A stretch of 52,809 bases of DNA from contig JAGHZW010000202.1 of the NCBI GenBank assembly GCA_017745195.1, forward strand, positions 21,645-74,453. Reading direction: 5' to 3'. Shown here piece after piece: positions 38,177 to 47,606 of the stretch (its first letter is position 1; every line of letters begins with the position of its first letter). The notes under the pieces were generated by a model. The model was not told the DNA's origin and did no database searches. It was given only the letters and a program-made list of their open reading frames with translations. The stretch comes from Pseudoxanthomonas sp. GTDB lineage: Bacteria; Pseudomonadota; Gammaproteobacteria; Xanthomonadales; Xanthomonadaceae. The translations under genes were made by a program, and so were the position numbers.

Positions 38177-38261
<85 letters not shown>

Positions 38262-38287: not shown

Positions 38288-38314
38288 AAACCCCGCCAAT
38301 GCGGGGTTTTTTGT
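38288..38314 (+). terminator. intrinsic terminator after tRNA-Leu
   Basis: AAAACCCCGC-CAAT-GCGGGGTTTTTTG. Confidence 0.85.
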
Positions 38315-38439
38315 TTTCCGGCCTCCGTCTTCCGGATCGCGCCTTCTTCATGGGCAGATCCACCATGACGCACGCAGGGCGTGAGACCGGCGCGGGTAGA
38401 ATCGCAGTCCTCCGCAACATCAGGCTGCATCCGCGCCCC

Positions 38440-40686
38440 ATGACCGAAACCCTCCGCCCGACCTTCCACGGCTTCGAACAGATCCCGCTGCGCGAGTACG
38501 CCGAGCGCGCCTACCTGGACTATTCGATGTACGTGGTCCTGGACCGCGCCCTGCCCTTCGTCGGCGACGGGCTCAAGCCGGTGCAGCGGCGCATCGTCTA
38601 TTCGATGAGCGAGCTGGGCCTGAACGCCGCGTCCAAGCCGAAGAAGTCCGCGCGCACCGTCGGCGACGTGATCGGCAAGTACCACCCGCACGGCGACTCG
38701 GCCTGCTACGAGGCGCTGGTGCTGATGGCCCAGCCGTTCTCCTACCGCTATCCGCTGATCGAGGGCCAGGGCAACTTCGGCTCCACCGACGACCCCAAGT
38801 CGTTCGCGGCCATGCGCTACACCGAATCCAAGCTCACCCCGATCGCCGAGGTGCTGCTGGGCGAGCTGGGCCAGGGCACCGTCGACTGGGTGCCGAACTT
38901 CGACGGCACCCTGGAGGAACCGAGCTGGATGCCGGCGCGGCTGCCGCACCTGCTGCTCAATGGCACCACCGGCATCGCGGTCGGCATGGCCACCGACGTG
39001 CCGCCGCACAACCTCAATGAAGTGGTCAGCGCCTGCGTGCGCCTGCTCGACGATCCGGCCGCCAGCGTCGCCGACCTGTGCGAGCACGTGCGCGGCCCGG
39101 ACTACCCGACCGGCGCGGAGATCATCACCGGCGCGTCGGACCTGCGCACGATGTACGAGACCGGCAACGGCAGCGTCCGCGCGCGCGCGACCTGGACCAA
39201 GGAAGCCACCGGCAACTTCGTGGTCACCGCCCTGCCCTACCAGGTCTCGCCGTCCAAGGTGATCGAGCAGATCGCCGCGCAGATGCGCGCCAAGAAGCTG
39301 CCGTGGCTGGAGGACATCCGCGACGAGTCCGACCACGCCAACCCGGTGCGGGTGGTGCTGGTGCCGCGCTCCAACCGGGTCGACGCCGAGCAGCTGATGG
39401 GCCACCTGTTCGCGACCACCGACCTGGAGAAGAGCTACCGGGTCAACCTCAATGTGATCGGCCTGGATGGCAAGCCGGCGGTCAAGAACCTCAAGACCCT
39501 GCTCGCCGAGTGGCTCACGTTCCGCACCGACACCGTGGCCCGCCGCCTCAAGCACCGCCAGGAAAAGGTCGAGCGCCGCCTGCACCTGCTGGAAGGCCTG
39601 CTGGTCGCCTTCCTCAACCTGGACGAGGTGATCCGGATCATCCGCACCGAGGACGAACCGAAGGCGGCGCTGATCGCGCGCTTCGGCCTGTCCGAGGAGC
39701 AGGCCGACTACATCCTCGAAACCCGCCTCAAGCAGCTGGCCCGCCTGGAAGAAATGAAGATCCGCGGCGAGCAGGACGAGCTGGCCAAGGAACTGGAGCG
39801 CATCGTCGCCATCCTCGGCAGCCCGACCAGGCTGAAGAAGCTGGTCAAGGACGAGCTGCTGGCCGATGCGAAGAAGTTCGGCGACGAGCGCCGCTCGCCG
39901 CTGGTCCAGCGCGACGCGGCGCAGGCGATCGACGAGACCGAACTGGTGCCGAGCGAGCCGATGACCGTGGTCCTGTCGGAGAAGGGCTGGATCCGCGCGG
40001 CCAAGGGCCATGACGTCGATGCCGCCGGCCTCTCCTATCGCGAGGGCGACAGCCTTCTGGCGGCGGTGAAGAGCCGCAGCACCCAGCAGGTCGCGTTCCT
40101 CGACTCGACCGGGCGCAGCTATTCGACCGCGGTGCACACGCTGCCTTCGGCGCGCGGCAACGGCGAACCGCTGACTGGCCGCTTCTCGCCGGCAGCGGGC
40201 GCGTCGTTCCAGGCGGCGGCCAGCGGCGACAACGACACCCGCTTCGTGCTGGTGTCCTCGCACGGCTACGGCTTCGTCACCCGCTTCGAGAACCTCACCG
40301 GCCGCAACAAGGCCGGCAAGGCGATGCTCAACCTGACCCCGAACGCGCGCGTGTTGCAGCCAGCCGCGGTCGCCAGCGTCGACAGCGACCGGATCGTGGC
40401 GGTGACCAGCGCCGGCCATCTGCTGGCGATTCCGGCCAGCGAGCTGCCCGAGCTGGACAAGGGCAAGGGCAACAAGCTGATCGACATCCCCAAGGCCAAG
40501 CTCGGCACCGAGCGCGTGGTCGCGGTGGCCGCGCTCGCGCCCGGGCAGAAGCTGCAGGTGCTCAGCGGCCAGCGGACGATGACGCTGTCGTTCAAGGAGC
40601 TGGACGAGTACGTGGGCGCGCGGGCGACGCGGGGCGGGTTGCTGCCGCGGGGGTGGCAGAAGGTGGATGGCCTGGCTGTCGAATAG
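38440..40686 (+). CDS. parC: DNA topoisomerase IV subunit A
   Basis: [43 protein letters not shown] -10-like element at 38397-38402. Confidence 0.96.
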
Positions 40687-45542: not shown

Positions 45543-47237
45543 TCAGCCCGCCAGCGCCTGCTCGTGCACGCCGGCCACCGCGCGGCCGGACGGATCGGCC
45601 ATCTTCGCGAAGCTCGCATCCCAGGCGATCGCCGCCGGCGAGGAGCAGGCGATCGACTTGCCGCCCGGCACCGTGTCCGCCGCAGCCGGGGTCGGGTAGA
45701 AGCGCTCGAACACCGAACGGTAGAAATAGGCTTCCTTGGTCTGCGGCGGGTTCACCGGGAAGCGCTTGTCGGCAGCGGCCAACTCGCGGTCGCTGACCTG
45801 CGCTTCGGCATGCGCCTTCAGCCCGTCGATCCAGCCGTAGCCGACGCCGTCACTGAACTGCTCCTTCTGCCGCCACAGGATCTGCTCGGGCAGGTAGCCG
45901 TCGAAGGCCTGGCGCAGCACGCCCTTCTCCATCCGCTGCGGGCCTGCTTCGCCCTTGCGCACCATCTTGTGGCGGGCGTCCATGCGCATGGCCACGTCGA
46001 GGAACTCGCGGTCCAGGAACGGCACGCGCGGCTCCACGCCCCAGGCCATCATCGACTTGTTGGCGCGCAGGCAGTCGAAGTTGTTGAGCGCGTCGAGCTT
46101 GCGGATCAGCTCCTCGTGGAATTCGCGCGCGTTCGGCGCCTTGTGGAAGTACAGGTAGCCGCCGAACACCTCATCGCTGCCCTCGCCGGACAGCACCATC
46201 TTCACGCCCATCGCCTTGATCCGGCGCGCCAGCAGGAACATCGGCGTGGACGCGCGGATGGTGGTGACGTCGTAGGTCTCGATATGGCGGATCACTTCCG
46301 GCAGCGCGTCCAGGCCTTCCTCGAAGGTGTACTCGAAGCCGTGGTGCACGGTGCCCAGCGCCTCGGCGGCGATCTTGGCCGCCGCCAGGTCGGGCGAGCC
46401 CTTCAGGCCGATGGCGAACGAGTGCAGGCGCGGCCACCAGGCTTCGCTCTTGTCGCCATCCTCGATGCGGTGGCGGGCGTAGCGCGCGGCGACCGCGGCC
46501 ACCAGCGAGGAATCCAGGCCGCCGGACAGCAGCACGCCGTAGGGCACGTCGGTCATCAGCTGGCGATGCACGGCCGCTTCGAAGGCTTCGCGCAGTTCGG
46601 TCGGCGAAACCTCGACGCCTTCGACCGCGGCGTAGTCGCGCCACGGCCGCTCGTAGTACTTCGTCAGCTCGCCAGTGGCGGAGTCGTACCAGTGGCCGGG
46701 CGGGAACTGGGCCACGTCGGCGCAGTCGTCGACCAGCGACTTCATCTCCGAGGCCACGCGCAGGCGGCCTTCCCTGTCGTGGCCCCAGTACAGCGGCACC
46801 ACGCCGATCGGGTCGCGGGCGATGATCGCCCGGCCCTTGGCCTTGTCCCACAGGGCGAAGGCGAAGATGCCGTTGAGCCGGTTGAGGAACGAGTCCGGCT
46901 CGTCCTCCAGATACAACGCGTTGATCACCTCGCAGTCCGATTCGGTCTGGAACGCGTAGGCATGCTTCAGTTCGCCCTTGAGCCGCTTGTGGTTGTAGAT
47001 CTCGCCGTTGACCGCCAGCGCCAGGCGGCCGTCGTCCGACAGCAGGGGTTGCGAACCGCCGGCCGGATCGACGATGGCCAGGCGCTCGTGTACCAGGATC
47101 GCGCCGGCGTCGATGTACACGCCGCTCCAGTCCGGGCCGCGATGGCGCTGCCGTTGCGACAGGTCCAGCGACTGCCGGCGCAGCGCCTGCAGGTCATCGC
47201 CCGGTTGCAGGCCGAAGATGCCGAAGATCGAACACAT
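45543..47237 (-). CDS. asnB: asparagine synthase (glutamine-hydrolysing) B
   Basis: MCSIFGIFGLQPG (Cys2 nucleophile); VLLSGGLDSSLVAA; SGEGSDEVFGGYLYFHKAPN; SD AGGAG upstream. Confidence 0.96.
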   Translation of the reverse strand: MCSIFGIFGLQPGDDLQALRRQSLDLSQRQRHRGPDWSGVYIDAGAILVHERLAIVDPAGGSQPLLSDDGRLALAVNGEIYNHKRLKGELKHAYAFQTESDCEVINALYLEDEPDSFLNRLNGIFAFALWDKAKGRAIIARDPIGVVPLYWGHDREGRLRVASEMKSLVDDCADVAQFPPGHWYDSATGELTKYYERPWRDYAAVEGVEVSPTELREAFEAAVHRQLMTDVPYGVLLSGGLDSSLVAAVAARYARHRIEDGDKSEAWWPRLHSFAIGLKGSPDLAAAKIAAEALGTVHHGFEYTFEEGLDALPEVIRHIETYDVTTIRASTPMFLLARRIKAMGVKMVLSGEGSDEVFGGYLYFHKAPNAREFHEELIRKLDALNNFDCLRANKSMMAWGVEPRVPFLDREFLDVAMRMDARHKMVRKGEAGPQRMEKGVLRQAFDGYLPEQILWRQKEQFSDGVGYGWIDGLKAHAEAQVSDRELAAADKRFPVNPPQTKEAYFYRSVFERFYPTPAAADTVPGGKSIACSSPAAIAWDASFAKMADPSGRAVAGVHEQALAG

Positions 47238-47327
47238 GGGAAAACTCCTGGGTCTGGTGTGGTGTTACGGATTCGGACGGGCGTGGCGGACATCGGCGGC
47301 GGACATCGGCAGCGAAAACCCGGACAC

Positions 47328-47357
47328 AAAAAAACCCGCATCGGCCGATGCGGGTTT
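47328..47357 (-). terminator. intrinsic terminator in asnB 5' leader (attenuator)
   Basis: Minus-strand RNA AAACCCGCAUC-GGCC-GAUGCGGGUUU followed by further U (7 consecutive U); about 90 nt before asnB ATG. Confidence 0.9.
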
Positions 47358-47380
47358 GATGGTGACCGGGCTGTCCTGCT

Positions 47381-47479
47381 CTATGCCTGGTCGCGCTCCC
47401 GCATCGGCCGCGTACGGTTATTCGCCGCATTATTCATGCGGTTGATATTGACCGGGTTGGCGCGCAGGGCGGAATGCAT
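47381..47479 (-). CDS. Asn-rich leader peptide upstream of asnB
   Basis: 32-codon ORF MHSALRANPVNINRMNNAANNRTRPMRERDQA*; 7 Asn within codons 8-21; terminator 23 nt past the stop codon; below the ORF-track length cut-off. Confidence 0.8.
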   Translation of the reverse strand: MHSALRANPVNINRMNNAANNRTRPMRERDQA

Positions 47480-47606
47480 GGACCGACACTAACCCGCCCC
47501 GCGCAGGCCCCGCAACTGTTGCCTGGGCAACTGACAAACCGCTCACGGCATCGGGCCAATACTCCGGTCCCGCGCGCCGCACGTTCCGACGTCACCGGAG
47601 TCCGCC

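Follow-up and report, generated by a model that had tools for sequence, protein, structure and literature searches.

Leader-peptide attenuation is well known in Proteobacteria for the His, Trp, Phe, Thr, Ile and Leu operons, and in Firmicutes T-boxes can regulate Asn genes. In the trp, his, leu, ilv, thr and phe attenuators, a short ORF rich in codons for the product is followed by a terminator and then by the biosynthetic gene. Part of that ORF pairs with the 5' arm of the terminator, such that a stalled ribosome leads to an antiterminator and a ribosome at the stop codon leads to the terminator. The region upstream of asnB in Pseudoxanthomonas sp. has this same layout and this same pairing. 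It was studied within a stretch of 52,809 nucleotides, referred to hereafter as the window. We predict that a ribosome-mediated attenuator, set by charged Asn-tRNA, very probably controls the transcription of asnB. The basic elements are these:

47381-47479, minus strand: leader peptide ORF of 32 codons, MHSALRANPVNINRMNNAANNRTRPMRERDQA and a stop codon, recognized by reading the sequence and by the conserved Asn-rich ORF in relatives
47328-47357, minus strand: intrinsic terminator with an 11-bp stem, a 4-nt GGCC loop and seven U, located by a pattern scan, with an equivalent site in nearly all leader-bearing relatives
47245-47249, minus strand: AGGAG ribosome-binding site of asnB, read from the sequence
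45543-47237, minus strand (47237 to 45543): asnB, the proposed controlled gene, encoding a glutamine-hydrolysing asparagine synthetase B of 564 aa, assigned with NCBIfam profiles

The original prediction had described a 32-codon ORF running from 47479 to 47381 with seven Asn codons, four of them AAT, and an 11-bp, 4-nt-loop terminator with seven U beyond it. Re-reading of the ORF agreed to the base, with Asn at codons 8, 11, 13, 16, 17, 20 and 21 and AAT used for 4 of the 7. The pattern scan returned the same terminator on the minus strand, its stem extending from 47357 to 47332 and its T-rich tract (7 T in all) reaching 47328, at the predicted distance of 23 nt from the leader stop codon. The AsnB of the window scored 870 bits against NF006949, the asparagine synthase B equivalog of NCBIfam (cut-off 499), and 424 bits against TIGR01536; the gene is 97% identical to asnB of P. 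jiangsuensis. On the plus strand, a UbiB-like ORF starts from 47607; its score against UbiB was 329 bits, short of the cut-off of 488. Because this neighbour is divergent, the leader, the terminator and asnB form a separate unit. Elsewhere, the sole Rfam match of the window was a tRNA-Leu (CAG) at 38177-38261 on the plus strand, directly upstream of an ORF at 38299-40686 that appeared parC-like by eye.

The enrichment of the leader in asparagine was strong and specific to the reading frame. Asn made up 18.6% of the residues in 102 leaders, compared to 1.6% in the AsnB proteins of the relatives, and the other two frames of the same leader DNA contained 0.2-0.3% Asn. Both Asn codons are in use (354 AAC and 299 AAT in the 102 leaders), suggesting that the amino acid is conserved and not a DNA motif. 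The share of AAT was 46% of the Asn codons in leaders but 13% in asnB genes, which bears out the earlier remark that AAT is unusual here. A preference for AAT may prevent structure in the region of the stall, or it may slow decoding. As a background for the Asn counts, other pairs of a terminator and a short ORF were drawn from the window and 80 loci of relatives, 641 kb in all. Since the 29 background pairs contained from 0 to 3 Asn and none contained more, the occurrence of an Asn-rich ORF and a terminator before asnB is not due to chance.

Conservation of the Asn run in relatives had been set beforehand as a test of the prediction. Up to 600 nt upstream of asnB was read at 80 loci of named genomes without the window's leader as a guide. 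Two of the 80 loci had too little upstream DNA, leaving 78 that, together with the window, formed a testable set of 79. An Asn-rich short ORF followed by a terminator was present in 77 of these. One exception, L043, lies on a MAG contig, and an unrelated reading frame immediately precedes its asnB; the other, L051, is from the actinobacterium Rhodococcus sp. RD6.2 and its asnB is 74% identical to that of the window. The asnB found in Rhodococcus sp. RD6.2 may reflect either horizontal transfer or a contaminating contig. The carriers of the leader include Pseudoxanthomonas, Xanthomonas, Stenotrophomonas, Luteimonas, Thermomonas and Lysobacter, and also Dyella, Rhodanobacter, Luteibacter, Fulvimonas and Dokdonella. 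The peptides are widely diverged (e.g., MVFQRANLNNANRNNLRANNRARPMRVCD, MHAHLASQISSNAALAARAVVAATVLNNNANNNNRNRGRAGV and MTRRSSNRNRPNNRNNNCGNTVRARRNGDQA), but the clusters of Asn were kept in all of them. The rest of the peptide, the sequence of the terminator and the spacing have drifted, while the Asn-rich ORF and the terminator persist in Lysobacteraceae, in Rhodanobacteraceae and in a third family, so that the prediction passed this test.

The distribution of the leader matched that of one type of asnB. A leader was found in 26 of 26 further genomes with an asnB of 72-80% identity (families f1, f2 and f183), compared to 1 of 59 genomes with a divergent asnB (59-68% identity), a set in which one locus (L150) is incomplete and which takes in two genomes from outside the order, both lacking the leader. 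These results suggest that the device is tied to a single lineage of asnB, apart from one isolated look-alike. The sole leader among the 59, L114 (genome G446, family f188), consists of MFAIYNTINTTNNRLLRSAGSF and a terminator before an asnB of 64% identity, and 30 other sampled genomes of family f188 had no leader. It may represent an independent origin, a transfer or a remnant. Within the order, asnB of this type (E <= 1e-100) was found in 308 of 399 genomes; in the sample of the class, it was found in 6 of 369, two of which lie outside the order. Three members of f1 (G455, G601 and G736) and six of f2 (G431, G594, G642, G644, G675 and G733) had a best asnB that was only 63-66% identical, and all nine lacked the leader. 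The absence of the leader from members of leader-bearing families that carry such an asnB suggests that the gene and its control were replaced jointly.

In calling the locus an attenuator, the original prediction relied on the ORF, the terminator and the layout, all of which were supported, and it had named no antiterminator. We found one within the ORF. It engages the leader ORF and the 5' arm of the terminator and is mutually exclusive with the terminator. The segments of this switch are:

47425-47441, minus strand: hairpin CCGCAT-GAATA-ATGCGG at Asn codons 16-17, which probably serves as a pause or protector hairpin, seen when the full leader was folded to minimum energy
47398-47409, minus strand: antiterminator segment C, GGCCGATGCGGG, within the ORF, complementary to the 5' arm and loop of the terminator, with pairing kept in relatives
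47385-47392, minus strand: 5' strand of an inner helix in the antiterminator, GACCaGGC, from the fold, with its partner at 47371-47364
47364-47371, minus strand: 3' strand of that inner helix, GCCcGGTC, from the fold
47343-47354, minus strand: segment D, CCCGCATCGGCC, the 5' arm and loop of the terminator, pairing with C (antiterminator) or with E, the 3' arm (terminator)

When a ribosome was placed at Asn codon 16, 17 or 20 of the window's leader, the minimum-energy fold was the C:D antiterminator of 12 bp. Moving the ribosome to the stop codon left the terminator as the only fold. The full leader without a ribosome also folded into the terminator, with C held by upstream sequence. Hairpins similar to the one at codons 16-17 were seen by eye in L001, L016 and L060, and in Rhodanobacteraceae an analogous second helix surrounds the stop codon. 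The stop codon lies 14 nt past C in the clade of the window, compared to 6-7 nt in most others, and a ribosome at the stop codon would therefore cover only part of C in the window's clade.

The same alternatives were obtained across the 102 leaders. The terminator formed in 102 of 102 when the ribosome stood at the stop codon; with a ribosome at the best Asn stall, D paired with the ORF (P > 0.5) before E was made, again in 102 of 102. Pairing of D with the ORF was obtained from the last suitable Asn codon in 95% of leaders, compared to 22% of dinucleotide shuffles. A between-species permutation served as the other null for C:D: beyond the anchored core, 3.85 of 7 pairs formed when C and D came from one species versus 3.00 (sd 0.13) when they came from different species, a test in which shared ancestry remains. 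A third null, based on synonymous codons, was dropped because it was weak, its codon pool having come from the same leaders. The partners differ among groups, C and D being CCGATGCGGG and CCCGCATCGG in most Lysobacteraceae, GGCGGGCC and GGCCCGCC in Rhodanobacter, GCAGGCC and GGCCTGC in some Lysobacter and TCGATGCGGG and CCCGCATCGA in L018. In Rhodanobacteraceae, the antiterminator pairs were kept in 89% of cells versus 23-48% when slid; covariation of these pairs was not above that of shuffles, the pairs being mostly invariant or GU-changed. Once the complete terminator was present, the antiterminator was preferred at equilibrium in only 31 of the 102 leaders, suggesting that in many species the switch would have to work kinetically, in the course of transcription.

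Upstream of the leader, a candidate promoter for the leader and asnB, absent from the original prediction, was recognized. Positions are counted with the A of the leader ATG as +1:

47510-47515, minus strand: predicted -35 element, TTGCGG, of the leader/asnB promoter, at -36 to -31
47486-47491, minus strand: predicted -10 element, TAGTGT, at -12 to -7, with 6 nt left before the leader ATG

Alignment of the 102 leaders at the ATG showed a TTG[CTA] core that begins at -37 to -35 (92 occurrences), conserved positions from -15 to -7, with the -10 region ending at -7, and a C at -1 in 86% of the leaders. No Shine-Dalgarno signal was found before the leader ATG in the same alignment. Promoter-like elements at a fixed distance from the AUG, together with the lack of a Shine-Dalgarno signal, predict a leaderless leader. 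Judged from this geometry, the leader mRNA is probably leaderless in about 100 species, with +1 at or near the A of the AUG.

From these features we infer ribosome stalling on the leader, a response to asparagine and the start site of leader transcription. Transcription from the promoter at about 47515-47486 would begin at the leader AUG or close to it, and a ribosome would translate the leader behind RNA polymerase. When Asn-tRNA is scarce, the ribosome would stall at Asn codons (16, 17 or 20 in the window), leaving C free to pair with D; the terminator would then not form and polymerase would enter asnB. When Asn-tRNA is plentiful, the ribosome would reach the stop codon, C would be covered or sequestered, and D would pair with E to end transcription at about 47328. 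A full leader that is not translated would be expected to adopt the terminator fold too.

The genes for charging Asn-tRNA were compared with this scheme. A match to asnS was found in the genome (635 bits, cut-off 343), while no match to gatA over its cut-off and no match to asnA were found in the assembly, which is 88% complete, so that these gene absences are not final. The presence of asnS, with gatA and asnA not found, leads us to expect that free asparagine sets direct charging of Asn-tRNA. The asnB gene was the only synthetase of its type found, apart from one distant match in a frame of 905 codons (G000:C170), and is expected to be the main asparagine synthetase of the genome. Among 56 genomes, asnS was present in 55 and gatA in none (E <= 1e-90), whether or not they had the leader. 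A comparison of the leader with the route to Asn-tRNA is uninformative, since asnS is nearly universal and gatA is in none.

Other explanations of the conserved ORF and terminator were weighed against these results. If the leader were an independent gene for an sRNA or small protein that has its own terminator, with the asnB promoter lying downstream, the terminated transcript of about 150 nt with its ORF would resemble an sRNA, and the terminated trpL leader of S. meliloti is known to act in trans (PMC7298713). Some Rhodanobacter species have up to about 220 nt between the terminator and asnB, enough room for a promoter. In several species, however, as few as 29-40 nt lie between the terminator stem and the start of asnB, and in at least 10 species a gap of 29-39 nt holds nothing but the U run and the ribosome-binding site; with no room for a second promoter, asnB in these species would have to be transcribed through the terminator. 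An isolated gene, moreover, would not need C and D to be mutually matched, and the residues of the peptide other than Asn are poorly conserved between families. We regard an independent gene as very unlikely. It is extremely unlikely that a protein or a directly sensed molecule (as in a riboswitch or T-box) acts at the terminator and that the ORF is incidental. A conserved terminator with alternative folds is a riboswitch layout too, and T-boxes can control Asn genes in Firmicutes. Against such a sensor, Rfam gave no family for the leader, either at the window site under permissive and gathering thresholds or at the loci of nine relatives under the gathering threshold, and the feature that is conserved is the series of in-frame Asn codons, in which the choice of AAC or AAT is free.

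A different possibility keeps the attenuator layout and assigns the Asn codons mainly to setting basal expression or the spacing of ribosomes, with little response to asparagine. Mutation of the candidate codons in the ilvB leader of S. coelicolor is cited, in a passage of PMC1262725, as having left regulation unchanged, a precedent for such behaviour. The enrichment in Asn is nonetheless strong and specific, the residue is the product of the enzyme, and it has been retained across three families, making a leader that responds little to asparagine very improbable in our estimation.

The attenuator that senses charged Asn-tRNA can be extended to a broader claim, which we consider reasonably likely as a whole. 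This would be the first attenuator of the ribosome-mediated kind to be described as specific for asparagine, and it would be general in Lysobacteraceae, in Rhodanobacteraceae and in one other family; its transcript would be leaderless, its setting would depend on tRNA charged by AsnRS, and it would have arisen once with its asnB lineage, one isolated similar case aside. Once terminated, the leader might have a further role in trans, either as a small RNA or as a peptide, like rnTrpL/peTrpL. If this is correct, asparagine is added to the list of amino acids that leader-peptide attenuation can sense, and control of asnB is explained in a large group of bacteria from soil, plants and the clinic (Xanthomonas, Stenotrophomonas, Lysobacter, Rhodanobacter and Dyella). 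The asnB leader would then report on Asn-tRNA charging in a compact, natural form, and its roughly 100 diverged natural versions provide a test set for attenuator design, for the choice of AAU or AAC and for the translation of leaderless mRNA.

The original prediction had also claimed novelty, in that no Asn leader-peptide attenuator of asnB was known to have been described. No Asn leader peptide was found in the open-access literature or in Rfam 15, and the claim holds over that range; two central comparative papers, Vitreschak et al. 2004 and Lopatovskaya et al. 2010, lie outside the search. The comparative study of Actinobacteria (PMC1262725) makes no mention of asparagine. The mechanism is classical and the asparagine/asnB version of it appears to be new, although its novelty is not fully secured.

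Several known systems resemble the asnB leader in part. As in T-boxes, the charging state of Asn-tRNA would act on a terminator, but T-boxes bind tRNA directly without a need for translation, and the asnB leader matches no T-box model. Leu_leader (Rfam RF00512) was the only leader family that matched the site even weakly (19.6 bits, far below the gathering score of 50, E 1.6); this likeness is one of layout and not of family, as the asnB leader has no run of Leu. The S. meliloti trpL leader RNA (rnTrpL/peTrpL) starts at the AUG of the leader ORF (PMC7298713), a transcript start that is predicted for the asnB leader from the promoter geometry. The trpL leader, from an alphaproteobacterium, is specific for Trp and unrelated in sequence to the Asn-rich asnB leader. 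In contrast to the amino-acid operon attenuators of Proteobacteria, the proposed device senses asparagine and its target is asnB, and where the classical leaders carry one run of codons, the asnB leader carries its Asn codons in several short clusters.
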